DNA of 64,000 nt from an uncultured Dehalococcoidia bacterium (GTDB lineage: Bacteria > Chloroflexota > Dehalococcoidia > Lucifugimonadales > UBA3495): the NCBI GenBank assembly GCA_958296385.1, contig OY282494.1, positions 1,595,416-1,659,415 of the forward strand, in the 5' to 3' direction. Shown piece by piece: positions 33,745 through 60,900 of this stretch (the first letter of the stretch is position 1; every line of letters starts with the position of its first letter). The notes beneath the pieces were generated by a model. The model saw only the letters and a program-made list of their open reading frames with translations. It was not told where the DNA came from and searched no databases. The translations under genes and the position numbers were made by a program.

Positions 33745-36700
33745 GGTCTATCCTCGCGTGTGCGGGGGAATCATGGCCTCCACATAGTAATCGGCGGTCG
33801 TGCCAAGTCTATCCCCGCGTATGCGAGGGAATCGCACTGCGCGCACACCGACGGACGGGTGCGGGAGGTCTATCCCCGCGTGTACGGGGGCATCGGACAA
33901 GTACGTCTTGGAGTGCATCCCCAGCGCGGTCTATCCCCGCGTGTGCGGGGGAATCAGGAGTTTGCGCCCGTTGTCCACGCTAGCCTGGGGTCTATCCCCA
34001 CGTGTGCGGGGGAATCGTGGGCCCCGCCGTCTCCGGCGTAGGACATAAGGGTCTATCCCCGCGTGTGCGGGGGAATCGTGGTCTGCGCGGCGTCAGCGTT
34101 GGGGGCCTGGGGTCTATCCCCGCGTGTGCGGGGGAATCGAACCCGCAGGTGGCCAGCGACTGGACGTCCCCGGTCTATCCCCGCGTGTGCGGGGGAATCA
34201 ATGCGGCCCGGAACCAGTCCTGCCGGCGCAGGGGTCTATCCCCGCGTGTGCGGGGGAATCAGTTTAGCGGCTTGCCCAGGCCGTCGGTGTCGGGGTCTAT
34301 CCCCGCGTGTGCGGGGGAATCTGGTGGGATATGGCGTTGACCCCGCACAGGCGCGGTCTATCCCCGCGTGTGCGGGGGAATCAATCTCGGCGTTGAGATA
34401 GACGCTGACGGCGTGGGTCTATCCCCGCGTGTGCGGGGGAATCCCCCAGGACCCGCAGGACGTCCAGCCGGCGCAGGGTCTATCCCCGCGTGTGCGGGGG
34501 AATCCCGGACACGAGTACACCCCGGCCAACACGTACAGGTCTATCCCCGCGTGTGCGGGGGAATCTACCAGCCGGGCTACTGGTGGCCAAGAGATGACGG
34601 TCTATCCCCGCGTGTGCGGGGGAATCAAAAAGCTTAACCGGCATAGGCGCCAACCTCCGGGTCTATCCCCGCGTGTGCGGGAGAATCGCGAGGACGGGGA
34701 TAAGACCGACGCCGCTGCGCCATCTATCCCCGCGTGTGCGGGGGAATCCAATACCGATGGCCGTTGGGGTAGCGGTAGGTGGGTCTATCCCCGCGTGTGC
34801 GGGGGAATCCACGGACACCAGGGCGGCGGCGGCTCCCTCGCCGGTCTATCCCCGCGTGTGCGGGGGAATCGAACAGTGCGGCGGCACGGCAGAAAGCCTT
34901 GCGGGTCTATCCCCGCGTGTGCGGGGGAATCTCATCCCTGAGCAGGTCAGCCATACGATTCCAAGGTCTATCCCCGCGTGTGCGGGGGAATCCGGCCCAG
35001 GTCAACTGCGTTTTGACAATGGTCAGGTCTATCCCCGCGTGTGCGGGGGAATCACCGTCACCAGCAAGGCGGCAGTCAAAACCCTAGGTCTATCCCCGCG
35101 TGTGCGGGGGAATCACGGCGAACAGCACCAAGCGGAACTGGAAGGACGGTCTATCCCCGCGTGTGCGGGGGAATCGGGGCAAGGACGCAGATTAAGAGAG
35201 CCGGGGTAGGTCTATCCCCGCGTGTGCGGGGGAATCACGACGATTACGCTGGGCGGCACGCCGCATAAGGGTCTATCCCCGCGTGTGCGGGGGAATCCCC
35301 TGTTGCCCGGAGTAGGCTGGCCCTGGCTGAGGTCTATCCCCGCGTGTGCGGGGGAATCCCGGCGGCCTATGCGATGGCGATGCCTACGATGGCTCTATCC
35401 CCGCGTGTGCGGGGGAATCCTACCGCCGGACTTACCCCCGGCCAGATTATCGGCTCTATCCCCGCGTGTGCGGGGGAATCCCCTGTTGCCCGGAGTAGGC
35501 TGGCCCTGGCTGAGGTCTATCCCCGCGTGTGCGGGGGAATCGCGGCAACGACGCAGCCCTGGCCCGGAATGAGGGGTCTATCCCCGCGTGTGCGGGGGAA
35601 TCCCGGCCTGCGCCAATCGCCCCCGTCCGATTTAGGGTCTATCCCCGCGTGTGCGGGGGAATCCATAGGAAAACCCACTGCGTGAACGGCCACGAAGGTC
35701 TATCCCCGCGTGTGCGGGGGAATCGACGCCCTGAACCCGCCGGTTGACCTGACCGCCGGTCTATCCCCGCGTGTGCGGGGGAATCTCCCAGCATCCGGTT
35801 TCGGGGTTGATGGTGTACGGTCTATCCCCGCGTGTGCGGGGGAATCCAGTCGTCGGTGGTGCTGGGGTAGATGAGCATGGGTCTATCCCCGCGTGTGCGG
35901 GGGAATCAGCGACGGAAAGCCATCAAGGACAGGACAACGCGGTCTATCCCCGCGTGTGCGGGGGAATCGGGATACCCGCATCCCGTATCATCTGCTCCGT
36001 GGGTCTATCCCCGCGTGTGCGGGGGAATCAACCCGGTTGCGATGTACCTGGCGCCCTTCCGGGGTCTATCCCCGCGTGTGCGGGGGAATCATGCTGACGA
36101 ACGAAACGCCTTACCGGGCATGGGGTCTATCCCCGCGTGTGCGGGGGAATCCAAATGCTTCCGGCGTTCGCTCCGGGTCATCGGGGTCTATCCCCGCGTG
36201 TGCGGGGGAATCTTCGTCCACCAAGTACTGATGCTGAGCAAAAGAGGTCTATCCCCGCGTGTGCGGGGGAATCGCTAACCGTTACGAAATCCGTAATAAC
36301 GGCTCAGGTCTATCCCCGCGTGTGCGGGGGAATCGGTGCCGGCGTTGGCGATGCTCATTCCGGCGACGGTCTATCCCCGCGTGTGCGGGGGAATCCTTAC
36401 CACATAGGCATGGTCAAGCTTGCCGTCGGGTCTATCCCCGCGTGTGCGGGGGAATCCACGCGTCCATCCGGTTCGCCAATGCCTGTCGGGGTCTATCCCC
36501 GCGTGTGCGGGGGAATCGCCCGCGATATTTCGAAGACATCATACCGGAAAGGTCTATCCCCGCGTGTGCGGGGGAATCACGGACAAGCACGCCGGCTGGA
36601 TACGACGCGGGGGTCTATCCCCGCGTGTGCGGGGGAATCGGCTTGCCTTTCATTACCATGGTCAACTGCCAGGGTCTATCCCCGCGTGTGCGGGGGAATC

Positions 36701-39700
36701 TGGCCGCAATCCAAAGCTACCTGCTATGGCTAAGGTCTATCCCCGCGTGTGCGGGGGAATCCCGCGAGTGCGAAGCCAGTCTTGACGTCATCCGGGTCTA
36801 TCCCCGCGTGTGCGGGGGAATCCCGTCACAGCGGGCGCCGGATGCGGGATTAGGAGGTCTATCCCCGCGTGTGCGGGGGAATCTTACGGCGGTCGGATTT
36901 TGCCTGTTTCTGCTGAGGTCTATCCCCGCGTGTGCGGGGGAATCCCGGCCCGGAGTAGCGCATCGCGTTGCCCAGCGGGTCTATCCCCGCGTGTGCGGGG
37001 GAATCTGCCGTGGGCGTTGTCGGCGTCGTCCAGGTCAAGGTCTATCCCCGCGTGTGCGGGGGAATCAAGCGTATGCTGGTATCGCGGCGAGCTACGACGG
37101 GTCTATCCCCGCGTGTGCGGGGGAATCCACGATGTACGGCCGGAAGTAGCCGAGCAGGTAGGTCTATCCCCGCGTGTGCGGGGGAATCGGCCTTTCGGGA
37201 TGCTGCCAGACGACTTGCGGGGGTCTATCCCCGCGTGTGCGGGGGAATCTCCGGGTCAATCTGCGGCTTTGCCTGCAAGCAGGGTCTATCCCCGCGTGTG
37301 CGGGGGAATCCCATGCAGTGGCGCCGCGACCCCGTGCGCCGGTGGTCTATCCCCGCGTGTGCGGGGGAATCAGCGGCGGGATGTTTCCCTTTCAACCAGA
37401 AACAGGTCTATCCCCGCGTGTGCGGGGGAATCAGCTCCGCCGTGGACTCGCTTATCAGCACCGGAGGTCTATCCCCGCGTGTGCGGGGGAATCATGATCC
37501 ATGGGCGGCGGTTTTTATAGATTAGGGGTCTATCCCCGCGTGTGCGGGGGAATCCTGGTCGTGTGCGTCTAGGGGCGTTTGGCGTGCGGTCTATCCCCGC
37601 GTGTGCGGGGGAATCCGGGGCTTGCCAGCCCTTGTTTGACTATCCTAAGGTCTATCCCCGCGTGTGCGGGGGAATCTCAGAACCTGATGTCAGGCTCCGG
37701 CGAAGTGCAGGTCTATCCCCGCGTGTGCGGGGGAATCCTTGGCCCCCGACGTGGACGAGATGACCGGGGCGGTCTATCCCCGCGTGTGCGGGGGAATCAA
37801 TCCGCCCCGGAATCGTGACTTGTCCTTTCCCGGTCTATCCCCGCGTGTGCGGGGGAATCTCCGCCGGCTGCCAGCAGTAGGCGTACAAATTGGGTCTATC
37901 CCCGCGTGTGCGGGGGAATCACGGCGTGGTCCTTGTCCCGGTCGTTGGCGACGGGTCTATCCCCGCGTGTGCGGGGGAATCGCGTCCGGCGCATCCCGCT
38001 GGATACCCGGTATGGGTCTATCCCCGCGTGTGCGGGGGAATCCTGCCGAATCACGGTGCGGGCCACTTCGTATGCGGTCTATCCCCGCGTGTGCGGGGGA
38101 ATCTCATCATCAGCAACTACGCCACTTTGGATAGCAGGTCTATCCCCGCGTGTGCGGGGGAATCGTTCACCAGTGATGCAGCTCCCACCTGGGTTCCGGT
38201 CTATCCCCGCGTGTGCGGGGGAATCTTCGTCGGAGGCTTGGGATTTGTAGTAATCCCGGGTCTATCCCCGCGTGTGCGGGGGAATCCCGACAACCGGCAG
38301 GTTGGTAACTGGGGCGAGAGGTCTATCCCCGCGTGTGCGGGGGAATCGGCGCTGGCCGACGACTTGCCTTGGCCACCCAAGGTCTATCCCCGCGTGTGCG
38401 GGGGAATCAAGCGCCGTCCGGCGACGTGATAATGCTCGAACGGTCTATCCCCGCGTGTGCGGGGGAATCCGGCAGAACCGGAACCGGACGAAACCAACAA
38501 CGGGTCTATCCCCGCGTGTGCGGGGGAATCTAGCGTCCCGTTCGTCTATCAGCAAATCCAAAAGGTCTATCCCCGCGTGTGCGGGGGAATCTAACCGGCC
38601 TGGAGGCAACACTGCCCAACTGGAGGTCTATCCCCGCGTGTGCGGGGGAATCTGCAGTCGCACATCCAAAACGAGCTGGACGACCGGTCTATCCCCGCGT
38701 GTGCGGGGGAATCGCCGCCCGTTGCAACAGGCTTTTGACACGAACAGGTCTATCCCCGCGTGTGCGGGGGAATCGCATGATTTGCGCGTGGCATAAGATA
38801 GAACAAAGGTCTATCCCCGCGTGTGCGGGGGAATCTCGCCCAAGGCCCAGGTGGCCAGGCCATTCATCGGTCTATCCCCGCGTGTGCGGGGGAATCAACA
38901 ACAACCTGTCGGAACGGCTGCAAGGCACAGGTCTATCCCCGCGTGTGCGGGGGAATCGGCGCATTGTGCGGCGGTGCCTTCGGTTCGCAGGGTCTATCCC
39001 CGCGTGTGCGGGGGAATCATCCGCACATTGTCCGGGTTGAACGTCCACTTCGGTCTATCCCCGCGTGTGCGGGGGAATCCCCGGAAGTCGGCGGCGCCGT
39101 GCTCAGCGATAGGGTCTATCCCCGCGTGTGCGGGGGAATCGGTGTCGGCGGCATCGGCGGCGTCAATGTTGGCGGTCTATCCCCGCGTGTGCGGGGGAAT
39201 CGGCCGGTGTGAGGACTGCCGCAAGCGGCGGCGGGGTCTATCCCCGCGTGTGCGGGGGAATCCGCCGCGCCTCCGGGTCCGAGTCATAGACCACGGGTCT
39301 ATCCCCGCGTGTGCGGGGGAATCGCAAGGATAATAGCCACCGTATCAGCGGCACACGGTCTATCCCCGCGTGTGCGGGGGAATCGCTGATACTGCGTGAT
39401 AGGTGGCAGGCTGGGTGGGTCTATCCCCGCGTGTGCGGGGGAATCCTCTCCTTGTCCGGCAGCCCAACATCCCCGTAGGGTCTATCCCCGCGTGTGCGGG
39501 GGAATCCACCGGAACCATCGCCCCGCTGCAAGCGGCGGCGGTCTATCCCCGCGTGTGCGGGGGAATCCGGCGGCTGATACTGCGTCCACCATCGCCTGCG
39601 GGTCTATCCCCGCGTGTGCGGGGGAATCCGGTTCCTCAATGGGCTGTTCAATGTGATGCAAGGTCTATCCCCGCGTGTGCGGGGGAATCGATTGTAGAAT

Positions 39701-42700
39701 GGCGGCGTACTCCAGGCGAAACGGTCTATCCCCGCGTGTGCGGGGGAATCCAGGCGGTCTAGGCGTTGTCGTTGTACCGCCGGGGTCTATCCCCGCGTGT
39801 GCGGGGGAATCGTGGCCGGATTGATGTACTCAACGGTGCGGTAGGGTCTATCCCCGCGTGTGCGGGGGAATCGGGGCTGACTTGCGTCTGCATCGTATAG
39901 ACGGCGGTCTATCCCCGCGTGTGCGGGGGAATCGTAATCCGTACCCTCTATCAGGGGTTCCCACGAGGTCTATCCCCGCGTGTGCGGGGGAATCGGCAGC
40001 AGGGCGCCCCTTGCGGAACGCCCCAACGGTCTATCCCCGCGTGTGCGGGGGAATCGTCAACACATTCCCGGCGCCAATTTTGGGGCAAGGTCTATCCCCG
40101 CGTGTGCGGGGGAATCCTCCGCCCATAGCAATCGTGCCAATAATGCCGCGGTCTATCCCCGCGTGTGCGGGGGAATCTCCCGCCAAGATACCATCTTGGG
40201 GGCAATCGCCGGTCTATCCCCGCGTGTGCGGGGGAATCTCCCGCCAAGATACCATCTTGGGGGCAATCGCCGGTCTATCCCCGCGTGTGCGGGGGAATCT
40301 CGTTGCGGCCATCCCAGAACCGCCCATAGCCCGGTCTATCCCCGCGTGTGCGGGGGAATCGGAAACCTAACGTGATACCCCGGCCCGAAAGCGGGTCTAT
40401 CCCCGCGTGTGCGGGGGAATCCCGGAGTACCCGCCTACTGGCGTTCAGCAACCGGGTCTATCCCCGCGTGTGCGGGGGAATCCCGGCATAACAATGGCCG
40501 GGCGGAACTCACGCAGGTCTATCCCCGCGTGTGCGGGGGAATCCCGGCATAACAATGGCCGGGCGGAACTCACGCAGGTCTATCCCCGCGTGTGCGGGGG
40601 AATCCAACACCCGCCGGACGCCCGACGGACGCCGGAAGGTCTATCCCCGCGTGTGCGGGGGAATCCCAGCAGTATTTTGACCTGAACGGCTACCAGTAGG
40701 TCTATCCTCGCGTGTGCGGGGGAATCTAGGCGGTCAGTATCGCCGTTTTATGGGCATCGGGTCTATCCCCGCGTGTGCGGGGGAATCCTAGGGCCTGCTC
40801 CGGGGTAATGCCGTAGCGCAGGTCTATCCCCGCGTGTGCGGGGGAATCCTCAACGGCGCAGGTACGGCAAGCCCGGTATCCGGTCTATCCCCGCGTGTGC
40901 GGGGGAATCCACTGCCGGCGGCCATCCGGTTTGCGGTAAGTGGGTCTATCCCCGCGTGTGCGGGGGAATCCAACCGCAAGGAGTATCTACGATGACCGAA
41001 CACGGTCTATCCCCGCGTGTGCGGGGGAATCCAACCCCGGCCAGACGGTTTGCGCCGGATGGTGGGTCTATCCCCGCGTGTGCGGGGGAATCCGGGCCAG
41101 CACAACGGCAACCGGACGCACTGCGGGTCTATCCCCGCGTGTGCGGGGGAATCCACGATGGGGTAGCCCAACGGGGCAAAGGCGGCGGTCTATCCCCGCG
41201 TGTGCGGGGGAATCCGGCGGCGGCAGTTCGCCGCGCTCCTGCATAAGGGTCTATCCCCGCGTGTGCGGGGGAATCACTCCGGCGTGCCGGTAAGGAACTG
41301 GCACCGCAGGTCTATCCCCGCGTGTGCGGGGGAATCCGTTATCAGGCGGTGCTTGGCCTGTACATCTCAGGTCTATCCCCGCGTGTGCGGGGGAATCGCC
41401 CCGATAGCGGTCATACGAATAGCGATGGGCGGTCTATCCCCGCGTGTGCGGGGGAATCCATTCCCAGCATCCGGTCGGTGCGATGATGTACGGTCTATCC
41501 CCGCGTGTGCGGGGGAATCCGATCCTGGCACTGTTCGGCGCGGCATCGTACAGGTCTATCCCCGCGTGTGCGGGGGAATCCGGCGTGTGGCTGATCAATC
41601 GCTGCCCCATCAGGGTCTATCCCCGCGTGTGCGGGGGAATCAACGTAATGCAAGTCGTACTTGTCCCCATCGTGGGTCTATCCCCGCGTGTGCGGGGGAA
41701 TCAGCATCGGCTCCTCCTGCGTCAGGCCGGCGTCGGGTCTATCCCCGCGTGTGCGGGGGAATCAATCATCGGCTATCCGGGCCGTGCTCCAACCGAGGTC
41801 TATCCCCGCGTGTGCGGGGGAATCGTTTCGCCATTTCGGCCCAGCTGCGGCGCGGGCGGTCTATCCCCGCGTGTGCGGGGGAATCCGCCGGGCTGCGGTT
41901 AATCCCAAAACCGCCCCCGGTCTATCCCCGCGTGTGCGGGGGAATCCGGCCGGGGGCGTCGGGGGGCGTAGGCATAGCGGGTCTATCCCCGCGTGTGCGG
42001 GGGAATCTGGGCCGGGCCGGCGCCCCCGGTTGCGGCATCGGGTCTATCCCCGCGTGTGCGGGGGAATCGCCCCCCGGCCGGACGCGTTGGCGCTGGTAGC
42101 CGGTCTATCCCCGCGTGTGCGGGGGAATCACTGCGATAAAGTGGCGTCCCAGGTGGGGAAAGGGTCTATCCCCGCGTGTGCGGGGGAATCAGAGTATGGG
42201 AAACGGCGGCCAGCACACCATCAGGTCTATCCCCGCGTGTGCGGGGGAATCCCGGATCATCGCGTAGCACGGCAGCAACGCAAAGGTCTATCCCCGCGTG
42301 TGCGGGGGAATCCCCGCAACCTGCGGCGCCGGGCGTTTGCTATAAGGTCTATCCCCGCGTGTGCGGGGGAATCCGCCGACTTGCTGGCCGCAATGCGTGA
42401 AAAGGCGGTCTATCCCCGCGTGTGCGGGGGAATCCTGCTAACCGCAACCGAGGGACATTCGGTTGATGGTCTATCCCCGCGTGTGCGGGGGAATCCCTCT
42501 TGGTGTTCACAAACGGATGGCTGAGCCAGGTCTATCCCCGCGTGTGCGGGGGAATCTTGGACAGCATCAACGAAATCATCTACGATGACGGTCTATCCCC
42601 GCGTGTGCGGGGGAATCGGGGGGTTGGGGCGTGGGCTGACCGGCGGGGGGGGTCTATCCCCGCGTGTGCGGGGGAATCGTGATACAATGGCCCGAAACCG

Positions 42701-44571
42701 GGCAATGGAGAGGTCTATCCCCGCGTGTGCGGGGGAATCATGGGCCGGGTTGCGGTGGTATCGCCCGACATAGGTCTATCCCCGCGTGTGCGGGGGAATC
42801 TTTATCGTTGCCACCATCCTACACCCGCTTTGAGGTCTATCCCCGCGTGTGCGGGGGAATCTGGCAACGGTAACGGGCAGCCTTACCCTGGTGCGGTCTA
42901 TCCCCGCGTGTGCGGGGGAATCGGCGGGGGTGCGGCCCGGTTCGGGCTGGGCGGCGGTCTATCCCCGCGTGTGCGGGGGAATCAGCCCAAGAAAATCCGA
43001 CTCATCAAAACGGTGAGGTCTATCCCCGCGTGTGCGGGGGAATCGCCGGCGTATCTCCGTAACGGTGCCCCCCGATAGGTCTATCCCCGCGTGTGCGGGG
43101 GAATCCAATCTGCGTGTAGGCTGCTGGCATTATCGTAGGGTCTATCCCCGCGTGTGCGGGGGAATCACAGCCGTTGCGTCGCGGCGTTCACCGGCGGCGG
43201 GTCTATCCCCGCGTGTGCGGGGGAATCTCGGCAAGGATAGCGACTACCCAAGCCGTCCACGGTCTATCCCCGCGTGTGCGGGGGAATCCTTGTCCGGCTT
43301 GGCGGGCGGTTTGGCGCTCCAGGTCTATCCCCGCGTGTGCGGGGGAATCGTCGGCACAGCCGCCGTCCCCGGTGCCAGTAGATGGGTCTATCCCCGCGTG
43401 TGCGGGGGAATCCTACACGCTGACCTTGTGGGGTTCCGGCGACGGGGTCTATCCCCGCGTGTGCGGGGGAATCGGTGGGGGGTAATGATTTCGCGGATTT
43501 TGCCGGGGTCTATCCCCGCGTGTGCGGGGGAATCGCTGGCGTCTGATTTCGTAGCCTCGGTATCGCAGGTCTATCCCCGCGTGTGCGGGGGAATCGGTTT
43601 CGGTCTTCTCGTGGGCGGGTGGGTGGGCGGTCTATCCCCGCGTGTGCGGGGGAATCCGAAAGACCCGGCAAGCCTGGTAGTGAACATCAGGTCTATCCCC
43701 GCGTGTGCGGGGGAATCCGGGGGCAGGCCGCCGGTGAAAGCACCGTTGGCGGTCTATCCCCGCGTGTGCGGGGGAATCGGCCAGCACGCACCCCGACGAG
43801 ATAGCGAATGCGGTCTATCCCCGCGTGTGCGGGGGAATCGACAAGGACGTGTCGCCGCCATTCGTTGCCGTAGGTCTATCCCCGCGTGTGCGGGGGAATC
43901 GCCGCCGCTTGGCACGGTGGGCGTCGGCACCAGGGTCTATCCCCGCGTGTGCGGGGGAATCCCCCAGCAAGGATGATGCGATGCGCCCCTCATAGGTCTA
44001 TCCCCGCGTGTGCGGGGGAATCGCAGACATCACGTGGAGCCAAGGGCGGGGGTGAGGTCTATCCCCGCGTGTGCGGGGGAATCCTGCCCCTGGTGGGGGC
44101 GCTGTGGCTGGCCGGAGGTCTATCCCCGCGTGTGCGGGGGAATCCATCCACGAGTACGCCAACGCCGGCGCCGGCCGGGTCTATCCCCGCGTGTGCGGGG
44201 GAATCGTGCCTTGCCCAACTACGAATGGGGTAGCTTGCGGTCTATCCCCGCGTGTGCGGGGGAATCGCCGATAGGGATGGGCTGCTATCATCGGGGGGGG
44301 GTCTATCCCCGCGTGTGCGGGGGAATCCTAGGATACACCGCTTTTACCGGCGGCAATCCCGGTCTATCCCCGCGTGTGCGGGGGAATCCTGTGGGAACCG
44401 GACAAGCCGCCCCCGCCCGACGGTCTATCCCCGCGTGTGCGGGGGAATCTCTGGCAACTTCACGCTGGCAACCCGCCGACGGGGTCTATCCCCGCGTGTG
44501 CGGGGGAATCTTATGGACTAACTACACGCCGCCGCAGGACAGGGGTCTATCCCCGCGTGTGCGGGGGAATC
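33745..44571 (-). CRISPR. Type I-E CRISPR array, leader-distal segment, 178 repeats
   Basis: 178 repeats of 28 bp in a 61-bp period, counted from the regular spacing of repeat starts (33745 to 44544), with 33-bp spacers except one of 35 bp at 43350-43384. On the plus strand the repeat starts GGTCTATCCCCGCG and ends TGTGCGGGGGAATC. Its complement matches the canonical I-E repeat, so crRNA is made from the minus strand. The Cas6e stem is CCCCGC / GCGGGG with loop ACAC, giving a 5' handle AUAGACC plus one variable base; with that base counted in the repeat, the structure is the usual 29 + 32. Repeats at the left end are decayed (33745, 33806, 33867, 33989), as expected for the trailer. Confidence 0.97.
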
Positions 44572-44597
44572 CTCCGCTTGGTGTTTAGTTGCCGGGG

Positions 44598-45269
44598 GGT
44601 TCTGTTGCAAAATGCAGGGTAGTAATCATCTGGGCAACGTTTCCATCAGCCGCCGCAGCTGGCCTTGCGGGATGTCCGCTGCCGTGCCGCCGGTTTCCAG
44701 CATCAAAGCTTGCTGTACTTTGCTGGGGGCGATTACATACACGCGGGCGGCTTCCACGCCGGCGGCTATCAGCCTGCGCTTGCCGGTGAGTACGTCTTGC
44801 CGGCCGACGTCGGTATCAGGCCAAAGCCAGATGTTCCGGTCGTTGTTGCTAAACTCCTCCGCGATGTCGCTGTAATCGACGGCGCCAAAATCACGGCTGC
44901 CGCCGATGCGAGGCTCTGCCAGCTGGGCGTCGTCGTCGTGGAGGATGATGCAAACGCCATTGATGTAATGGTGAAGGGCGTCGGGCAAGTTGCTGGCGCA
45001 TTCCCCGTCAGGGGTGGCAATCAGCAAGCCAGGGGGATATTTGCGCCGGCGCTCCTGCTCCCGCTCCCAAGCCTCTTGCTGGTGCTTGCGCTTGCGGTTG
45101 CGACGGGCGCGGGCGTTGGGGTGGTTATCGGGCATTAGGTAACCTCCTTGGTTCGGAGTTCGTTCGTGTGCCAGGTGTGGGGGAGGGGCGTGCGGGTGAG
45201 AGTGAACGCAGAGCGTTATGGGGGAAGTTCCAAACGATGATTAACTACCCTGCATTTTGCAACAGAACC
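44598..45269 (-). mobile_element. 672-bp non-autonomous IS6-like element, copy 1
   Basis: Bounded by inverted repeats starting GGTTCTGTTGCAAAATGCAG at the left and its complement at the right; at least 26 bp are perfect, then an indel before a shared ATCATC. IS6-family insertion sequences (for example IS257 and IS26 relatives) have ends of the GGTTCTGTTGCAAA type and make 8-bp target duplications, as found here for the pair. There is no transposase: the only gene is the 169-residue cargo ORF. It would need a transposase in trans. Confidence 0.8.
44626..45135 (-). CDS. Element cargo protein with Toprim-like segment (copy 1)
   Basis: 169 residues, with AAGGAGGT just before the ATG, so it is a real gene. 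The N-terminus is very basic (RARRNRKRKHQQEAWERE). The middle has GVCIILHDDDAQLAEP. The C-terminal half has IWLWPDTDVGRQD followed by a helix and ARVYVIAPS, resembling the DxD and strand of a Toprim domain in phage or plasmid primases (WPDND-x-x-G). The usual catalytic Glu region is not obvious. It is not a transposase. The gene fills most of the element and reads in the same direction as the CRISPR array. Confidence 0.7.
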   Translation of the reverse strand: MPDNHPNARARRNRKRKHQQEAWEREQERRRKYPPGLLIATPDGECASNLPDALHHYINGVCIILHDDDAQLAEPRIGGSRDFGAVDYSDIAEEFSNNDRNIWLWPDTDVGRQDVLTGKRRLIAAGVEAARVYVIAPSKVQQALMLETGGTAADIPQGQLRRLMETLPR

Positions 45270-45283
45270 CGGCCCCCCTATGA

Positions 45284-45955
45284 GGTTCTGTTGCAAAATG
45301 CAGGGTAGTAATCATCTGGGCAACGTTTCCATCAGCCGCCGCAGCTGGCCTTGCGGGATGTCCGCTGCCGTGCCGCCGGTTTCCAGCATCAAAGCTTGCT
45401 GTACTTTGCTGGGGGCGATTACATACACGCGGGCGGCTTCCACGCCGGCGGCTATCAGCCTGCGCTTGCCGGTGAGTACGTCTTGCCGGCCGACGTCGGT
45501 ATCAGGCCAAAGCCAGATGTTCCGGTCGTTGTTGCTAAACTCCTCCGCGATGTCGCTGTAATCGACGGCGCCAAAATCACGGCTGCCGCCGATGCGAGGC
45601 TCTGCCAGCTGGGCGTCGTCGTCGTGGAGGATGATGCAAACGCCATTGATGTAATGGTGAAGGGCGTCGGGCAAGTTGCTGGCGCATTCCCCGTCAGGGG
45701 TGGCAATCAGCAAGCCAGGGGGATATTTGCGCCGGCGCTCCTGCTCCCGCTCCCAAGCCTCTTGCTGGTGCTTGCGCTTGCGGTTGCGACGGGCGCGGGC
45801 GTTGGGGTGGTTATCGGGCATTAGGTAACCTCCTTGGTTCGGAGTTCGTTCGTGTGCCAGGTGTGGGGGAGGGGCGTGCGGGTGAGAGTGAACGCAGAGC
45901 GTTATGGGGGAAGTTCCAAACGATGATTAACTACCCTGCATTTTGCAACAGAACC
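45284..45955 (-). mobile_element. 672-bp non-autonomous IS6-like element, copy 2
   Basis: A second copy, apparently identical, in direct orientation, separated from the first by 14 bp (CGGCCCCCCTATGA, 45270-45283). The pair is flanked by one 8-bp duplication (TGCCGGGG), so the whole 1358-bp unit behaves as a single insertion, like the pseudo-composite units made by IS6-family elements. Confidence 0.8.
45312..45821 (-). CDS. Element cargo protein with Toprim-like segment (copy 2)
   Basis: Same 169-residue protein as in copy 1, residue for residue, with the same RBS. The perfect identity of both copies argues for a recent duplication. Confidence 0.7.
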   Translation of the reverse strand: MPDNHPNARARRNRKRKHQQEAWEREQERRRKYPPGLLIATPDGECASNLPDALHHYINGVCIILHDDDAQLAEPRIGGSRDFGAVDYSDIAEEFSNNDRNIWLWPDTDVGRQDVLTGKRRLIAAGVEAARVYVIAPSKVQQALMLETGGTAADIPQGQLRRLMETLPR

Positions 45956-45970
45956 TGCCGGGGTGATTGG

Positions 45971-48011
45971 GGTCTATCCCCGCGTGTGCGGGGGAATCCG
46001 GCACGGGCGGCGGCGGCCTGGGCGCAGCCGGGGTCTATCCCCGCGTGTGCGGGGGAATCTCACGCTGCCCACCGCACCGGCTGGCACCCTACGGTCTATC
46101 CCCGCGTGTGCGGGGGAATCGATAAACGGCGCCTGGGAAACCTGCTACCCGTGGGTCTATCCCCGCGTGTGCGGGGGAATCTGTGAATATCGCCGTGATA
46201 GGCGATGGTGCCAGGGTCTATCCCCGCGTGTGCGGGGGAATCCCCTGGAAACTTGCATCCCGCTTTGCCATACCGGGTCTATCCCCGCGTGTGCGGGGGA
46301 ATCCATCGTTGATACTCCGGTTCGGTTGGCGTGCGGGGTCTATCCCCGCGTGTGCGGGGGAATCGTCGCAGGCGGCGGCCATTGCGTCAAGCAGGGGGGT
46401 CTATCCCCGCGTGTGCGGGGGAATCCGCCGGTGTCATTTGTTGCGGTGGTCATAATCGGGTCTATCCCCGCGTGTGCGGGGGAATCTGCCGTCGCGGAGG
46501 TGGAGCAGTCGCTCAGCCCGGTCTATCCCCGCGTGTGCGGGGGAATCGGTATCTGCAATCATTCGCAGTAGCACTGTACCGGTCTATCCCCGCGTGTGCG
46601 GGGGAATCCTCTCCGGTGGAGCATCGGATATAGCCCAGGGCGGTCTATCCCCGCGTGTGCGGGGGAATCGCAAAAAGCCTTGTCCAATCGAATAGCGCGT
46701 CGGGTCTATCCCCGCGTGTGCGGGGGAATCCGGGCCTCGCGCACCCGAACGTTGCGCAGCCGCGGTCTATCCCCGCGTGTGCGGGGGAATCGGTGCAGCA
46801 TGGTTGCAATGATTACGATCCACGGGTCTATCCCCGCGTGTGCGGGGGAATCACCAATGCCACCGCCCAGGTGGTGCTGGACCCCGGTCTATCCCCGCGT
46901 GTGCGGGGGAATCCACCACCGGGTCGGAGACCTGGGTGCTGGATGCGGTCTATCCCCGCGTGTGCGGGGGAATCCCCAGCGGGGACAGACATTAAGGACA
47001 TAGTACAGGTCTATCCCCGCGTGTGCGGGGGAATCTGCGCCGATAGGGCCGGCTCTTTCTCGTTCTCGGGTCTATCCCCGCGTGTGCGGGGGAATCCGCC
47101 AATAGCACCGGCGATTTGCTGTTAGACGGGGTCTATCCCCGCGTGTGCGGGGGAATCTGGACGGCGCCTTTGTGCCGGCGATGGGGCGGGGGTCTATCCC
47201 CGCGTGTGCGGGGGAATCCTACGGTTATCTGTACGGCGGTGGCAATCAGCGGGTCTATCCCCGCGTGTGCGGGGGAATCCGCTACGTGAGCGAGTATTAC
47301 GATTGTGATGACGGTCTATCCCCGCGTGTGCGGGGGAATCCGAAGCAAGGCAGATTTTATACGATTGGCAATCGGTCTATCCCCGCGTGTGCGGGGGAAT
47401 CGTAGTGCACGGGCGGATTGAGTTCTCCATTGAGGGTCTATCCCCGCGTGTGCGGGGGAATCCTGTCCCCGGCGAAGTCGCTGGGGCTGCCGGACGGTCT
47501 ATCCCCGCGTGTGCGGGGGAATCGCCAGCGCGGATACCGCTTTTATGGGCGGGCGGGGTCTATCCCCGCGTGTGCGGGGGAATCCCGGTCCAGCCGGGCG
47601 ATGACTACGGCATCGGCGGTCTATCCCCGCGTGTGCGGGGGAATCGTAGGCGTGCCAGCGCCTGCCTGCCTAAATAAGGGTCTATCCCCGCGTGTGCGGG
47701 GGAATCGACGGCCCGGCCTGGGGATGCGCCGTCGGGCGGGGTCTATCCCCGCGTGTGCGGGGGAATCCCTCGGAAGTAATCCATACGCCTACCCCAACGC
47801 GGTCTATCCCCGCGTGTGCGGGGGAATCATCCGCCAGTTCCGTATCGTGCTGTTGGCGGTGGGTCTATCCCCGCGTGTGCGGGGGAATCGTTCAGCCCGG
47901 CGTTCCTGACCTGTTCCTCTACGGTCTATCCCCGCGTGTGCGGGGGAATCGGGTTCAGCGGGCGCGGGCGCAGGCCGGGCAACGGTCTATCCCCGCGTGT
48001 GCGGGGGAATC
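45971..48011 (-). CRISPR. Type I-E CRISPR array, leader-proximal segment, 34 repeats
   Basis: 34 intact repeats in a strict 61-bp period (45971 to 47984), sequence as in the distal segment. It lies directly downstream of cas2 and its leader, so these hold the most recently acquired spacers. Together with the distal segment the array has 212 repeats and 211 spacers, one of them interrupted. Confidence 0.97.
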
Positions 48012-52094: not shown

Positions 52095-52718
52095 TTAGCT
52101 GTTTGCATTGTCGGATTGCACGGTCGCCCGCCGTTTGGCCTGGTAGTAATCGCGGGCCAGGCGGCGGCGGGATGCTTCGGCGGCGTCTTCGTTGTAGTCG
52201 GCGTTGCGGATAAAGTTCGCCATTTCCCACCAGTTGAAAGTAACGCCGGCGGAGGCCGCCATCCGAAACATCCGCGCCAGCAGGACGCGCAGCATATCCT
52301 CCCGCGCGTTGAGCAGGCGGTTGAACCGCATTTCGCTGTAAAACCCCGTTTGACTGGCGCTTTCGCCGCCCAGATACAGCGCGCGTCCTACGGGCGTCCC
52401 CTGGCTATGCGCCGACCGGCTGGACAAGTCGCCGCCGCCGGTGCGGGTCATCAGGGCGATGCCGTGCAGAATCAGCGCCCACTTTCGTTCTACGGCGCGG
52501 TTGGAATTGTCCAGCAAATCCCGGCTGGCCAGCAGACGCCAGAGGACGGCCGGGGCGTCGGTGTCCGGGTCGATACGGCGCAACTCGGCCAAATCGCCGC
52601 GCTGGAAATGTTCCTGTGCCATCTCCCATGCGAAGTAGCCGGCGTGGTCGCCCCAGGTCAGGGGGCGGTCTGGCGCCGTTGCCGTTTCCGGGGCAGCAGT
52701 GGTGGGCGCGCTAGTCAT
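52095..52718 (-). CDS. cse2: Cascade small subunit Cse2 (CasB)
   Basis: 207 residues of mainly helical sequence; the core TWGDHAGYFAWEMAQEHF, then LRRIDPDTDAPAVLWRLLA and the end of the domain (NWWEMANFIRNADYNED) fit Cse2. Two copies stabilise the bound target strand. The longer reading frame to 52976 is an overlap artefact of cse1. Two ATGs are adjacent (52721 and 52718); AAGGAG sits 6 bp before the second. It overlaps the cse1 end by 8 bp. Confidence 0.93.
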   Translation of the reverse strand: MTSAPTTAAPETATAPDRPLTWGDHAGYFAWEMAQEHFQRGDLAELRRIDPDTDAPAVLWRLLASRDLLDNSNRAVERKWALILHGIALMTRTGGGDLSSRSAHSQGTPVGRALYLGGESASQTGFYSEMRFNRLLNAREDMLRVLLARMFRMAASAGVTFNWWEMANFIRNADYNEDAAEASRRRLARDYYQAKRRATVQSDNANS

Positions 52719-54258
52719 CATCAGCTCCTTGCGGCGCGAACACGTCCGCCAGCCGGCCGTCATTCCGGATGCGTCCCTCAAACAGCCCCCGGGCATTGGC
52801 GCGGGCCTCGTAACGCAACATCGCCGGGCAGGGCAGCGAGTCGGTAGCATCGTCGAGGATGCGGCGCGCTTTAGGCAGCAGGAAATCCCGCCGCCAGTCG
52901 TTGCGGATACTGTCCTGCATTGCCCGGTCATCTTGCCCCAATTCGAATTGCAGGTCGTCGAAAAAGTGCGTGTCAACGATTTCGTTCAGCTGGTTCACCC
53001 AAGGACTAGCAGTCTGCAAACAGTCAGGGCTGATGTTGCCGGAATCGCCCCGTGCTGCAAACGTAGCGATGGAACGGCGAAGGATGTTCTGGACGGCATT
53101 AACATCATAGACACGCTCTTTGGCTATAAAACCCAGTTCTTGAATCCGGATTGCACCAGCCCTCAGCGGAATGACGCGCTCGTGGTAACCTTCGGTTTTC
53201 CCTTGCCCTCTCACCATAGCACGGGCCACCAGTTGCATTGGCTTTGATAGCCGCCTTTCGTCCGGGGTAAGTTCCATTAAAGGCGGCCACCTGAATTCGC
53301 TCGTGTCCAAATAGGTCGTAATTCGCCGGTAGGTAAAACCGCCGCGAGACAAGCTAAGCGCCTTGTCACCTTTTTTCTTGTCCCGCAGGTCGATAGGCGT
53401 CCAGGGATCATCAGTGATGCCGTTGCTGGTTTTGGCGTTGACGCGGGCCGCTTTGGAGCTGGTTCGGATTGCGTACAGTCGCCCGTCCTGGGCGGAGCGC
53501 ATACGGACGCGCCGGCACACTTCAATATACAGCGGCGCCAGACGGTTCAGCGTCAGCGCTTCGGCGCCCGTACCGTCCCAGGGCAGCGTCCAAAGCAGGG
53601 TATGTCCGCTGTTGGACAGCAGCGATGAATGATGCTCCAGCAGGGCGACAATATCGCGGCGCACGTGCGCGCCGGGGCGCGTGGAGGGCGTCAACGAGAA
53701 CGCCGGCCGGCTGCCCAACCCGCCGTTCATGCGGGATATGCCGTAATTGCCGGCGCCGCCGAAACCCTCCATAGTCTGCAAACTGACCAGCGCAAAAAGC
53801 CAGTCGTCTGCGCTGGCATCCGCAATCACCGCCGATTTGAGGTCGTGATTCTTGGAAGTGACCAGCATATCCAAGTCATCCGGCGTAGCGACCGTATTCT
53901 TATACTCGGGCAACTTGCCGGCAGATTGGGCCGGCGGCTGCATAAAGGCCGGCTTGGTGATGTCGTCAACCACCAGCTGCCAGGGTTCGTCATCGGCCCA
54001 ATCCGGCGTCAACCCCCGTATCAGATTGGCCCAAGCGCCGGCATCGTCGGGAGGAGCGCTCGCGCCGTCCCGGTGCATCGCCATCGCCCCCAACTGCACC
54101 AGAAAAGCGTGCCAGGAATGACGCGGGTAAGGGCGCAACCCCGGAAAAGCGGTCACGTCATCCGCCATCAGCGCAGCGTACACCTCCGGCAGCGACGCCA
54201 TGATGACGCCTTTCCCGGTGTGTACTCGGATGACGGGTTCGGTTAGGATATTGAGCAT
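52711..54258 (-). CDS. cse1: Cascade large subunit Cse1 (Cas8e)
   Basis: 515 residues. LNILTEPVIRVHTGKGVIMASLPEVYAAL is the N-terminal Cse1 opening, and QTMEGFGGAGNYGISRMNGGLGSRP is the conserved central loop (key residues GFGG.GNYG..RMNGG) close to the PAM-recognition region. It recognises the PAM and recruits Cas3. The start at 54258 has AAAGGAG 10 bp upstream. It is first of the cas operon cse1-cse2-cas7-cas5-cas6e-cas1-cas2. Confidence 0.95.
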   Translation of the reverse strand: MLNILTEPVIRVHTGKGVIMASLPEVYAALMADDVTAFPGLRPYPRHSWHAFLVQLGAMAMHRDGASAPPDDAGAWANLIRGLTPDWADDEPWQLVVDDITKPAFMQPPAQSAGKLPEYKNTVATPDDLDMLVTSKNHDLKSAVIADASADDWLFALVSLQTMEGFGGAGNYGISRMNGGLGSRPAFSLTPSTRPGAHVRRDIVALLEHHSSLLSNSGHTLLWTLPWDGTGAEALTLNRLAPLYIEVCRRVRMRSAQDGRLYAIRTSSKAARVNAKTSNGITDDPWTPIDLRDKKKGDKALSLSRGGFTYRRITTYLDTSEFRWPPLMELTPDERRLSKPMQLVARAMVRGQGKTEGYHERVIPLRAGAIRIQELGFIAKERVYDVNAVQNILRRSIATFAARGDSGNISPDCLQTASPWVNQLNEIVDTHFFDDLQFELGQDDRAMQDSIRNDWRRDFLLPKARRILDDATDSLPCPAMLRYEARANARGLFEGRIRNDGRLADVFAPQGADDD

Positions 54259-54268
54259 GGATCGAGCG

Positions 54269-54328
54269 CTCCTTTCTAGTAAATTTGAGCGGCACATACT
54301 TTCTACACTACGCGCTACCCGCTGTCAA
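54269..54328 (-). promoter_or_regulatory. Promoter and leader of the cse1-cas2 operon
   Basis: On the minus strand, TTGACA (54323-54328) and TAGAAA (54300-54305) are exactly 17 bp apart, giving a transcription start near 54293. The short 5' leader carries the RBS AAAGGAG (54269-54275). Directly beside the RBS is ATTTACTAG (54276-54284), the complement of the first nine bases of the spacer in the nearby crRNA-like gene. Confidence 0.75.
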
Positions 54329-54345: not shown

Positions 54346-54516
54346 CTATAGGCAGTATGGATCGCAGACCCAGCCGCTCGGCGTTCCAGGATGGCTATGC
54401 ACACCGCATAGATGGTATCGGCAGACAGCACAAAAATATCTCCAGGGCCGCGAGCAGTACTCGCAAGACGACGATGACGATTGGGCGGGGTTGGTAGGAA
54501 ATGATATAATGGCCAT
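54346..54516 (-). CDS. Putative 56-residue zinc-finger protein upstream of cse1
   Basis: A short reading frame missed by its size: 56 residues, ATG at 54516, with GGGAG 7 bp upstream. After a Ser-rich stretch it has CEYC (18-21), CAVC (29-32), C37 and H40/H42, and C51 with C55. This CxxC-x7-CxxC-x4-C-xx-H...CxxxC pattern is like a cross-brace HIT- or B-box-type zinc finger. It reads in the same direction as the cas operon, 87 bp before cse1. A possible promoter (TTGACT 54630-54635, TAGGCT 54607-54612) overlaps that of the divergent crRNA-like gene. Function unknown; a cas-linked regulator is only a guess. Confidence 0.5.
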   Translation of the reverse strand: MAIISFPTNPAQSSSSSCEYCSRPWRYFCAVCRYHLCGVHSHPGTPSGWVCDPYCL

Positions 54517-54598: not shown

Positions 54599-54627
54599 TT
54601 GTCGGTAGCCTATCAAAGCGGTATAAT
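54599..54627 (+). promoter_or_regulatory. Promoter of the crRNA-like gene
   Basis: TTGTCG (54599-54604), 17 bp, then a perfect TATAAT (54622-54627). The predicted start is near 54634, 24 bp before the first degenerate repeat. Confidence 0.75.
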
Positions 54628-54633
54628 AAAGTC

Positions 54634-54763
54634 AAGCGATTGGGATATACTAATTATCGTTGCCCCGGCTTATCGGGGATAGACCCTAGTAAATCCCCAT
54701 CGCTGGCGATTCCCCCGCAAACGCGGGGACAGTGACCCGGATGCCGGCCAATCGGCATCCGGG
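54634..54763 (+). ncRNA. crRNA-like cas-regulating RNA candidate (CreR/CreA type)
   Basis: A stand-alone mini-CRISPR unit transcribed opposite to the cas operon. Degenerate repeat 1 (54658-54685) keeps a CCCCG/CGGGG stem and the exact 5' handle ATAGACC of the main array. A spacer of only 21-22 nt follows (54686-54707), beginning CTAGTAAAT. Repeat 2 (54708-54737) keeps the first 22 bases with one mismatch, hairpin CCCCGC-AAAC-GCGGGG, and has a decayed 3' end. A terminator follows. Cas6e cleavage would give a roughly 50-nt guide able to load into Cascade. The known CreR and CreA RNAs guide Cascade to repress cas genes or a toxin gene through short seed pairing. Here the seed matches the cse1 leader. 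The alternative is a decayed leftover array. Confidence 0.72.
54736..54763 (+). terminator. Terminator of the crRNA-like gene
   Basis: Perfect 11-bp stem, CCCGGATGCCG / CGGCATCCGGG, with a 6-nt loop, followed by CAATTATT. It begins at the last bases of repeat 2. Confidence 0.7.
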
Positions 54764-54846: not shown

Positions 54847-55068
54847 TTAATCCGAACCGAGTAGCTCATTCCGAACCGCGTTCCAGTCCAGAACCGGATC
54901 AGAGGGGTCTTGCAGACGCTCCACCGCTACCGTGTGGTCGTCGTATTCCTCTAGATATTGCTCCAACGCCTGGCGAATCAAGTCGGTGCGATGGCGATGC
55001 TCAGAAGCCGCCGCCGCGTCCAAAGACGCCGCCAGTTCGTCCGGCACCAGTACGGTGATTTGGGCCAT
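54847..55068 (-). CDS. Ribbon-helix-helix (CopG/RelB-like) protein
   Basis: 73 residues. ITVLVPDELAASLDAAAASEHRHRTDLIRQALEQYLEEY is an RHH DNA-binding domain (strand, then two helices; here residues about 3-41), and the C-terminus VLDWNAVRNELLGSD is like antitoxins of RelB type. No toxin gene adjoins it: cas3 is upstream and the crRNA-like gene downstream. GGGAG precedes the ATG at 55068. It may be an orphan antitoxin or a regulator of the cas genes. Confidence 0.75.
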   Translation of the reverse strand: MAQITVLVPDELAASLDAAAASEHRHRTDLIRQALEQYLEEYDDHTVAVERLQDPSDPVLDWNAVRNELLGSD

Positions 55069-55173
55069 TTGACATCTCCCTAACGGCATTTGCATACCGG
55101 CGGTTGCATCCGCTAACTGCAATTACTGTAAGCCTGACGACATCGCCAGTCAACCGTTCCAACCTGCTCTTGC

Positions 55174-57933: not shown

Positions 57934-60900
57934 TTACGCCCCGGCCGGCGTGGAATCGCTTTCCGGGATGATGCCCCCCGCCGGCCGGCCAATCCCCAGC
58001 CGCCGGCGGTTCCTGACGGCCAGGGCAGCCACCACGACGACGAGCAGCAGCGCCAGCAGCATCCACCAGAGCGGGCTAACGCCGGCGTCCGGCGCGGACG
58101 GCGGCGCCTTTGACGGCACGGCGGCCGGCGAGGGAGTAGGCTCCGGCGTTGGGGCGAGCGCGGCGGCGGCCGGCATCGGAGTAGGCGTCGCCGGTGCCAG
58201 TGCGAGCGGCGGTTCCGGCGTGGCAGCCGGTGCCGGAGTTGCGGCCGGCGTCGGCGGCGTCGCGGTCGGCGTTGGTGTCGGCAGTGCCGGAGTCGGCGCA
58301 GGAGTCGGCGCTGGCGCAGCGGCGGGCGCGGATGCGACAGCGGACGACGACGGTATGGTTGGCTCCGGCGTAGTCGGCTCCGGCGCCGGCGTCAGCAGCA
58401 GCGGCGGCTTAGTCGGCTCATCGGGTTCCATAATAGTTATGTAGAAACTGATTGACGCCGTTGCGCCCATCTCGTCGGTGACGCTGTACGTGAATTGGGT
58501 TGTGGGCAGGGCTATTTGCGGACTGCCGGTAATGATGGCCCCGGGCACTGCGTCTTCGGCCACCCCGGGGGCCAGCGCGGGGCTAAGGGCGTAGGTAGGC
58601 GTGCCAACGGCCACCCCGGGGGGCAGCGCGGGGCTAAGGGCGTAGGTAAGCGTGCCAACGCCGCCGGTAGCCGGTGGCAGCGTGAACGGGTCAATCGCCC
58701 GGTGCTGCATCCAGAACTTGTCCCCCACCGTACCGGAGAACGCCAGCGGCAAAACCTTTTGCCCATCATCCTCGTCATCGTCCTTCGGAGGAACCAGCGT
58801 TGACGGCGGAGCCGCCACTGCGCCCACCTTTATCGTAAAAGTGAGCTGCGCCGCATCGCCATCGCCATCGGTGACTTTCCAAGTGTAAGTAGTAGCCGAC
58901 TGCTGGCCCGACGGCGTGCCGCTGATGCGATGGCTGGCATCCTTGCTCACGCCCGACGGCAGCGACGGACTAAGCGCGTAAGTCAACAAACCATCGCCGC
59001 CGGTAGCAGTCGGCAAGGTGAACGCCGTTATCGCCTGACGCTGCGTCCAAGTCTGATCGCCGATGGTTGCCGAGAACGACGGCGCAAGGTCTTGCGCGAT
59101 GGTAATGGTAAAGGTTAGTTGGGCAGTATCACCATCGGCATCGGTAGCCGTCCAAGTGTAGGTGGCAGCCGACTGATGTCCCGACGGCGTGCCACTGATG
59201 CGGTGGCCGGCGTCCTTGCTCACGCCGGCGGGTAGCGATGGGCTAAGCGTGTAAGTCAACGAACCATCGCCGCCGGTAGCAGTAGGCAGAGTGAACGCCG
59301 TCATCGCCTGCCGCTGCGTCCATGCGCGGTTGGCGATGGTCGTCGAGAACGACGGGGATAGGTCTTGGGCAATGGTTATGGTGAATGTCAACTCCACCGC
59401 GTCGCCGTCGGCATCGGTGGCTTTCCAGGTGTAGGTGGTAGCCGACTGGTAACCCGACGGCGTGCCGCTGATGCGGTGGCTGGCGTTCTTACTTACACCC
59501 GATGGCAGCGACGGGCTAAGCGTGTAAGTCAACAAACCATCGCCGCCCGTTGCCGTCGGCAGGGTGAACGCCGTTATCGCCCGCCGCTGCGTCCAAGTCT
59601 TATCGGCAATAGTCGCTGCACCGAACGATGGGGACAAATCCTCTGCTATGGTGATGGTGAAAGTTAGCTGCGCCGTATCGCCATCGCCATCGGTAGCCTT
59701 CCAAGTGTAAGTGGTGGCAGTCTGGTGGTCCGACGGCGTACCGCTGATGCGGTGACTGGCGCTCTTGCTTACGCCGGCCGGCAGCGACGGGCTGAGCGTG
59801 TAGGTCAACAAACCATCGCCGCCGGTTGCCGTCGGCAAGGTGAACGCCGTTATCGCCTGGCGCTGCGTCCATGTCTTATCAGCGATGGTTGCCGAGAACG
59901 ACGGCGCAAGGTCTTGGGCGATGGTTATGGTGAATGTCAACTCCACCGCATCGCCATCGGCATCGGTGGCTTTCCAGGTGTAGGTGGTAGCCCCCTGGTA
60001 ACCCGTCGGCGTGCCGCTGACGCTGAACGTGGTGGTGGCTACGCCGTCGGGCAGCGCCGGGCTTAGCGCGTAAGTCAACGAACCATCGCCGCCAGTAGCA
60101 GTCGGCAAGGTGAAGGCCGTTATCGCCTGCCGCTGCGTCCACGTCTTATCGGCGATAGTCGTCGAGAACGTCGGGGATAGGTCTTGGGCGATGGTTATGG
60201 TAAAGGTCAACTCCGCCGCATCGCCATCGCCATCGGTAGCCGTCCAAGTGTAGGTGGTTGCGGACTGGTGGCCCGTCGGCGTACCGCTGATGCGGTGATT
60301 GTCATCCTTGCTAACCCCGGCGGGCAGAGCCGGGCTAAGCGCGTAAGTCAGGTCACCATCGCCGCCCGTCGCCGTCGGCAAGGTGAACGCCGTTACCGCC
60401 TGCCGCTGCGTCCACGTCTTATCGGCGATGGTTGCCGAGAACGACGGCGCAAGGTCTTGGGCGATGGTTATGGTGAAGGTCAACTCCACCGCATCGCCAT
60501 CGGCATCGGTAGCTTTCCAGGTGTAGGTGGTAGCAGTTTGGTGCCCCGTCGGCGTGCCACTCACCCGATGGCTGGCGTTCTTGCTTACGCCCGCAGGCAG
60601 CGATGGGCTGAGGCTGTAAGTCAACGAACCATCACCGCCGGTTGCCGTGGGCAGGGTGAACGCCGTTATCGCCTGCCGCTGCGTCCACGTCTTATCGGCT
60701 ATGGTCGCTGCGCCGAAGGATGGGGACATATCCTCGGCTATGGTGATGGTGAAAGTTAGCTGCGCCGCATCCCCATCAGCATCGGTGGCTTTCCAGGTGT
60801 AGGTGGTAGCCCCCTGGTAACCCGTCGGCGTGCCGCTGACGCTGAACGTGGTGGTGGCTACGCCGTCGGGCAGCGCCGGGCTTAGCGTGTAAGTCAGCGT

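Follow-up and report, generated by a model that had tools for sequence, protein, structure and literature searches.

What is the function of a short crRNA-like unit in the gap between cas3 and cse1 of a type I-E locus whose main array carries 210 spacers? The window analyzed here, a stretch of 64,000 nucleotides (G000:C1:1595416-1659415) that forms part of a 3.30-Mb single-contig genome whose relatives are labeled as Dehalococcoidia/Chloroflexota MAGs, holds this locus on its minus strand in the order cas3, an RHH protein, the gap with the crRNA-like unit, cse1, an ORF in the position of cse2, cas7, cas5, cas6, cas1, cas2, and then the array (Table 1). A PADLOC scan of cas3, cse1, cas7, cas5, cas6, cas1, and cas2 gave a match for each of the seven. 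In the explanation that we consider likely, the unit at 54658-54735(+) is a mini-CRISPR of the CreR/CreA type, whose guide would lead Cascade to bind 54652-54621(-) without cleavage and thereby repress a promoter that reads through a small gene into cse1. The original study of the CreR, or cas-regulating RNA, is reportedly that of Liu et al. 2023 (doi 10.1016/j.chom.2023.08.005).

Table 1. Features of the cas locus and its mini-CRISPR (positions within the window).
Feature	Position	Strand	Details
Main CRISPR array	33772..48011	minus	212 repeats; 210 spacers, 33 nt each (one 35 nt)
cse1/cas8e, first effector gene	52711..54258	minus	PADLOC Cas8e, E 1.9e-151
Second, cse1-proximal promoter (predicted)	54300..54328	minus	TTGACA (54328-54323)-N17-TAGAAA (54305-54300); G018 counterpart TTGACA-N18-TAGAAA
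Unannotated 56-aa ORF, seven invariant cysteines, between target and cse1	54346..54516	minus	
crRNA-like RNA promoter (predicted)	54599..54627	plus	TTGTCG-N17-TATAAT; 10/12 consensus bases; weaker in G018
Promoter towards small gene and cse1 (predicted)	54607..54635	minus	TTGACT-N17-TAGGCT; -35 inside protospacer
Cascade target, protospacer (predicted)	54621..54652	minus	positions 1-21 = 54652-54632
PAM AAT of predicted target	54653..54655	minus	TAAT with preceding base
PsiR1, degenerate repeat	54658..54685	plus	stem CCCCG/CGGGG; handle ATAGACC; 8th handle base = C54686
Guide (spacer), 21 nt	54687..54707	plus	TAGTAAATCCCCATCGCTGGC; 20/21 bases same in G018
PsiR2, intact hairpin, degenerate handle	54708..54735	plus	handle ACAGTGACC
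cas3	57864-55174	minus	PADLOC

Anatomy of the mini-CRISPR and its surroundings

The crRNA-like unit lies outside the main array, is linked to the cas operon, and has degenerate repeats, all of which are features of CreRs. The handle of its first repeat, PsiR1, is identical to the end of the array repeat, GGGGATAGACC, and the 5' part of PsiR1 is degenerate, which is also seen in CreA genes (PMC9458426). An Rfam search of the mini-CRISPR region gave no match. The guide is 21 nt long in the window and in its closest relative, G018, and 22 nt in locus L020, compared with 32-33 nt in most relatives; a guide of 21 nt possibly leads to a shorter Cascade. The mini-CRISPR of G018 (L010) has two more 61-nt repeat units, 465-610 bases upstream of cse1, with the handle TTAAT rather than ATAGA.

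The surroundings have several features of their own. The main array is broken at 44598-45960 by a tandem duplication with a spacing of 686 bp, in which a 300-nt stretch is 100% identical, and this duplication holds two identical copies of a 169-aa ORF that we could assign to no family. The interval between cas3 and the mini-CRISPR encodes an RHH (CopG/RelB-like) protein of the antitoxin type at 54847-55069(-), without an obvious partner toxin; the counterpart of this slot in G018 (L053:2813-3387) holds a HicB-family protein (Pfam HicB) and an ORF that looks HicA-like by eye and has no Pfam match. Beside cas3, at 57934-63936(-), stands an ORF of at least 2000 aa with many Ig/cadherin-like repeats (a 273-bp tandem unit) and, judged by eye, a C-terminal membrane anchor.

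Register, PAM, and the self-target

The sequence-only reading had noticed that a 9-mer, CTAGTAAAT, is shared by the spacer start and the cse1 leader, which is correct: it has exactly two copies in the 64 kb, at 54276-54284(+) and 54686-54694(+). As a seed, however, the 9-mer is off by one. Among the 210 array spacers, the base that directly follows ...GGGGATAGACC is A in only 2 and C, G, or T in the remaining 208, a bias by which it can be recognized as the PAM-derived base that ends an 8-nt handle (ATAGACCN). The first base of CTAGTAAAT is this eighth handle base. The guide proper therefore begins at 54687, one base further on, and C, G, or T is expected at the last position of the PAM. In the self-targets of relatives, AA precedes the last PAM base, and the combined PAM, AAB, thus draws on two independent sources, the first-base bias of the array for its last base and the self-targets for its AA. 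AAN, AAC, and AAT have been documented as PAMs of type I-E systems (PMC8482600).

Read in this register, the spacer is partly complementary to the putative promoter of its own cas operon, as CreR spacers are, at a site that the earlier reading had missed, about 370 bp from the leader match. This predicted target, with the PAM AAT, matches the guide at 10/10 seed positions and at 5/5 of positions 13-17, with mismatches at 6, 12, and 18, and within the 64-kb window it is the only site that combines these matches with an AAN PAM. When other genomic targets were sought in G000 and G018, the spacer had no second match that was exact or convincing. The guide follows the seed rule of positions 1-5 and 7-11 known from CreTA and CrePA (compared with PMC8501985). 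Between the window and G018 the spacer and its target co-vary, position 7 having changed from A to G in both, and the unpaired position 6 drifts. The elements of the promoter whose -35 lies in the protospacer are kept in place in G018 (TTGACC-N17-TAGGCT), and L016 has TTGACA-N17-TAGGCT. The footprint of Cascade would extend over the -10 of the promoter predicted for the guide as well, which may make the guide self-limiting.

We scanned the spacer of each locus against its own cse1-to-PsiR1 region, using seed positions 1-5 plus 7-11 and an AA PAM. A self-target with an AAN PAM and 9-10 of the 10 seed positions is present in 15 of the 16 loci with a crRNA-like unit in the cas3-cse1 gap, the window's included, and the single failure, L022, is a full-length array. 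When spacers were swapped among loci, the mean was 6.0/10 seed matches, and only 1.7% reached 9 or more. Further self-target sites were found in loci from Chloroflexota, Caldilineaceae, Binatia, and a Burkholderiales. Over a set of 20 loci, the spacers of which are mostly unrelated (a few loci are related, namely L009/L010 and L025/L026), spacer and target are identical at 98/100 bases of positions 1-5, 91/100 of positions 7-11, and 83/100 of positions 13-17, the last figure being independent of selection since the sites were picked without positions 12 to 32. The flipped-out positions agree at the level of chance (2/20 at 6, 5/20 at 12, and 8/20 at 18; 15/60 together), as do positions 22-32 (54/220), so that pairing stops near position 21. 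L109, with its handle on the opposite strand, is for that reason the least certain of the 20 loci. Within the 5-nt segments, the middle positions 9 and 15 match less often over the 20 pairs (14/20 and 12/20).

This periodicity is that of Cascade, in whose heteroduplex every sixth base is flipped out (PMC5904413). More than 5 PAM-distal mismatches block locking and cleavage (PMC10281945), and the two properties together point to a design for binding without destruction. With positions 22-32 at chance, the complementarity is too short for cleavage, as in CreRs.

If the guide RNA is folded as transcribed, it can pair back on its complement upstream of PsiR1, which counts against auto-repression and raises another use for the same complementarity, namely that base-pairing within the transcript, between the spacer and the sequence upstream of it, controls processing. 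The predicted fold of 54634-54745 is indeed strong (z -4.0). Against a hairpin of this kind, the mismatches fall exactly at positions 6, 12, and 18, pairing ends near position 21, an AAN PAM flanks the targets, and no hairpin can form in L015, whose targets have the direct orientation. We therefore regard control by a hairpin as extremely unlikely.

The match in the cse1 leader

The sequence-only reading had placed Cascade and its guide on 54276-54308(+), where they would repress the cse1-proximal promoter; in the present context this could perhaps be a second site. Several of its observations are sound. The leader match does lie beside the cse1 RBS (AAAGGAG, which it adjoins; cse1 begins with the ATG at 54258), the -10 at 54300-54305 belongs to a good promoter (TTGACA-17 nt-TAGAAA), and the 9-mer is contiguous and at the right end of the spacer. 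The chance of such a match is small, as had been argued, and amounts to a nominal 0.27% in the 382-bp intergenic region on both strands by dinucleotide shuffles, which makes the coincidence noticeable, not decisive.

As a Cascade target, the leader site fares poorly: its flank is TTC and not AAB, and it matches 7/10 seed positions (1-5 plus 7-11) against a null mean of 6.65. Co-variation of spacer start and cse1 leader had been proposed as a check, and in G018, whose cse1 is 83% identical to that of the window, the two have changed independently: the spacer, CTAGTAAGTCCCCATCGCTGGC, is kept (21/22 identical), and the 9-mer in the leader is lost (TCCTGTTTGCGAAAATTTGAG, compared with TCCTTTCTAGTAAATTTGAG in the window), with its flanks otherwise conserved. 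In a test for second sites at the cse1 promoters of 13 loci, the background was exceeded in L015 (G006) only, which has a second site with 10/10 seed positions and the PAM ATG on the cse1 -10, and the other 12 of the 13 showed no enrichment. The match of CTAGTAAAT at 54276..54284(+) is thus probably a coincidence, and binding there is in our judgment very unlikely. What stands of the earlier proposal is its mechanism, a crRNA-like RNA that leads Cascade to its own cas promoter without cleavage, for which the comparative sequence support is strong; the site that it named lacks such support.

L015 is of interest in its own right. One guide has two self-targets there, 41 and 161 bases upstream of cse1, one of them on the cse1 -10 and the other at a 66-aa ORF on the opposite strand, and this locus is possibly a two-promoter CreR.

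What the target promoter controls

Between the target and cse1 lies the small seven-cysteine gene, and the question is which of the two genes the promoter serves. The window, G018, and eight other loci encode the seven-cysteine protein, and a search of 250 genomes of the order with its profile gave 10 strong matches, each of them immediately upstream of cse1. In one alignment of the protein (A1), N-termini were trimmed and a Met added by hand; another (A3) holds the unaltered translations. None of the families in Pfam, NCBIfam, or PADLOC matched the 56-aa protein above cut-off, no homology to toxins was seen, and its AlphaFold model is of low confidence (pLDDT 70, pTM 0.44).

Other loci suggest what the target promoter does. 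In L027, L028, and L084, a promoter lies on one side of the target and the start of cse1 on the other, without an intervening gene, and L068 and L077 have a small ORF under the target that either adjoins cse1 or overlaps it. From these 5 loci we infer that the promoter at 54607..54635(-) drives cse1 in the window as well. Here the small gene and cse1 are 87 nt apart, with the conserved second promoter candidate between them, so that repression might stop at the small gene.

This last point bears on an addiction module like CrePA or CreTA, in which the guide would mainly repress a toxin, the seven-cysteine protein, and the cas operon would be a mere neighbor. A separate cse1 promoter candidate, kept in both the window and G018, agrees with such a module, as does the variety of unrelated small genes that relatives carry between target and cse1, which would be expected of exchangeable cargo: apart from the Cys-rich genes and others, they include a gene for an HNH-type protein in L013 (Pfam HNH_3, E 4e-8) and, in L023, a short fragment with a sub-threshold likeness to DnaQ. 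On the other hand, the 56-aa protein has no toxin homology that we found, L027, L028, and L084 have their target at cse1 itself and no cargo, and the cargo of L068 and L077 is coupled to cse1. Since the shared feature is a promoter reading into cse1, auto-repression of the cas genes by a CreR is favored over a pure toxin guard, which we consider unlikely, although the cargo leaves room for CrePA.

In the favored CreR model, Cas6e of the type I-E system would process the mini-CRISPR transcript and release a guide that has the handle ATAGACCC and the 21-nt spacer. Cascade loaded with this guide would bind its target next to the PAM AAT, pairing at positions 1-5, 7-11, and 13-17 only, and would be unable to lock or to recruit Cas3 productively. 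It would occupy the region of divergent promoters that separates the mini-CRISPR from the cas operon and there repress the promoter that reads through the seven-cysteine gene into cse1 as well as, probably, that of the guide itself. If array crRNAs or anti-CRISPRs then took Cascade off the guide, the operon would be de-repressed. The anatomy, PAM, periodic self-target, conservation, and co-variation are read directly from the sequences, and it is from them that we infer processing, binding, repression, de-repression, and a repressed promoter common to the small gene and cse1 in G000. A seed of positions 1-5 and 7-11 is enough for repression by CreA (PMC8501985). Against auto-repression, short seed-only binding of Cascade in E. 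coli has been described as transcriptionally inert (PMC5904413).

Relation to known systems and significance

CreRs act in types I-B, I-E, and V-A through partial promoter complementarity (PMC13131331; PMC12737573), and the element described here resembles them in its type I-E setting, in being an ectopic mini-CRISPR that has degenerate repeats and lies next to the cas operon, in its partial complementarity to a promoter, and in the predicted auto-repression by Cascade. It differs from CreRs, as the reviews describe them, in the short spacer of the window, only 21 nt, and in the non-homologous small gene, mostly of the seven-cysteine kind, that in many cases separates the target promoter from cse1. 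With CreTA/CreA it has in common the seed of positions 1-5 and 7-11 with position 6 unpaired (PMC8501985) and a PsiR1 more degenerate than PsiR2 (PMC9458426), whereas no RNA toxin was found here and the PAM is AAB (I-E) rather than TTC (I-B). The small protein gene under a targeted promoter recalls CrePA (PMC12737573), but the protein has no KilA-N domain or known toxin, and several relatives lack the cargo. The CreR mechanism, the seed rule, and PsiR degeneracy are already published, and the element belongs to a known kind; for a conserved Cys-rich gene in the regulated slot, we found no precedent within the literature searched.

A more tentative possibility is that the CreR slot in this type I-E clade of sponge- and ocean-associated Dehalococcoidia and their neighbors controls an exchangeable small gene, mostly of the new seven-cysteine family, that is co-regulated with Cascade. 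Such a gene could encode a CRISPR-guarded effector or regulator that is freed when Cascade is sequestered, combining CreR and CrePA in one promoter.

The correction of the site matters for experiments, since a reporter fusion would otherwise be built on the wrong promoter. The fifteen-plus guide-target pairs form a natural data set of Cascade target rules, with their 6-nt periodicity and a pairing length below the locking threshold, and the comparative evidence is unusually clean. If the predicted repression holds, RNA-guided auto-regulation of cas genes would extend to an uncultured lineage of Chloroflexota whose array holds 210 spacers, and the analysis brings to light an unannotated family of small proteins, always in the regulated slot before cse1, that is worth an experiment.
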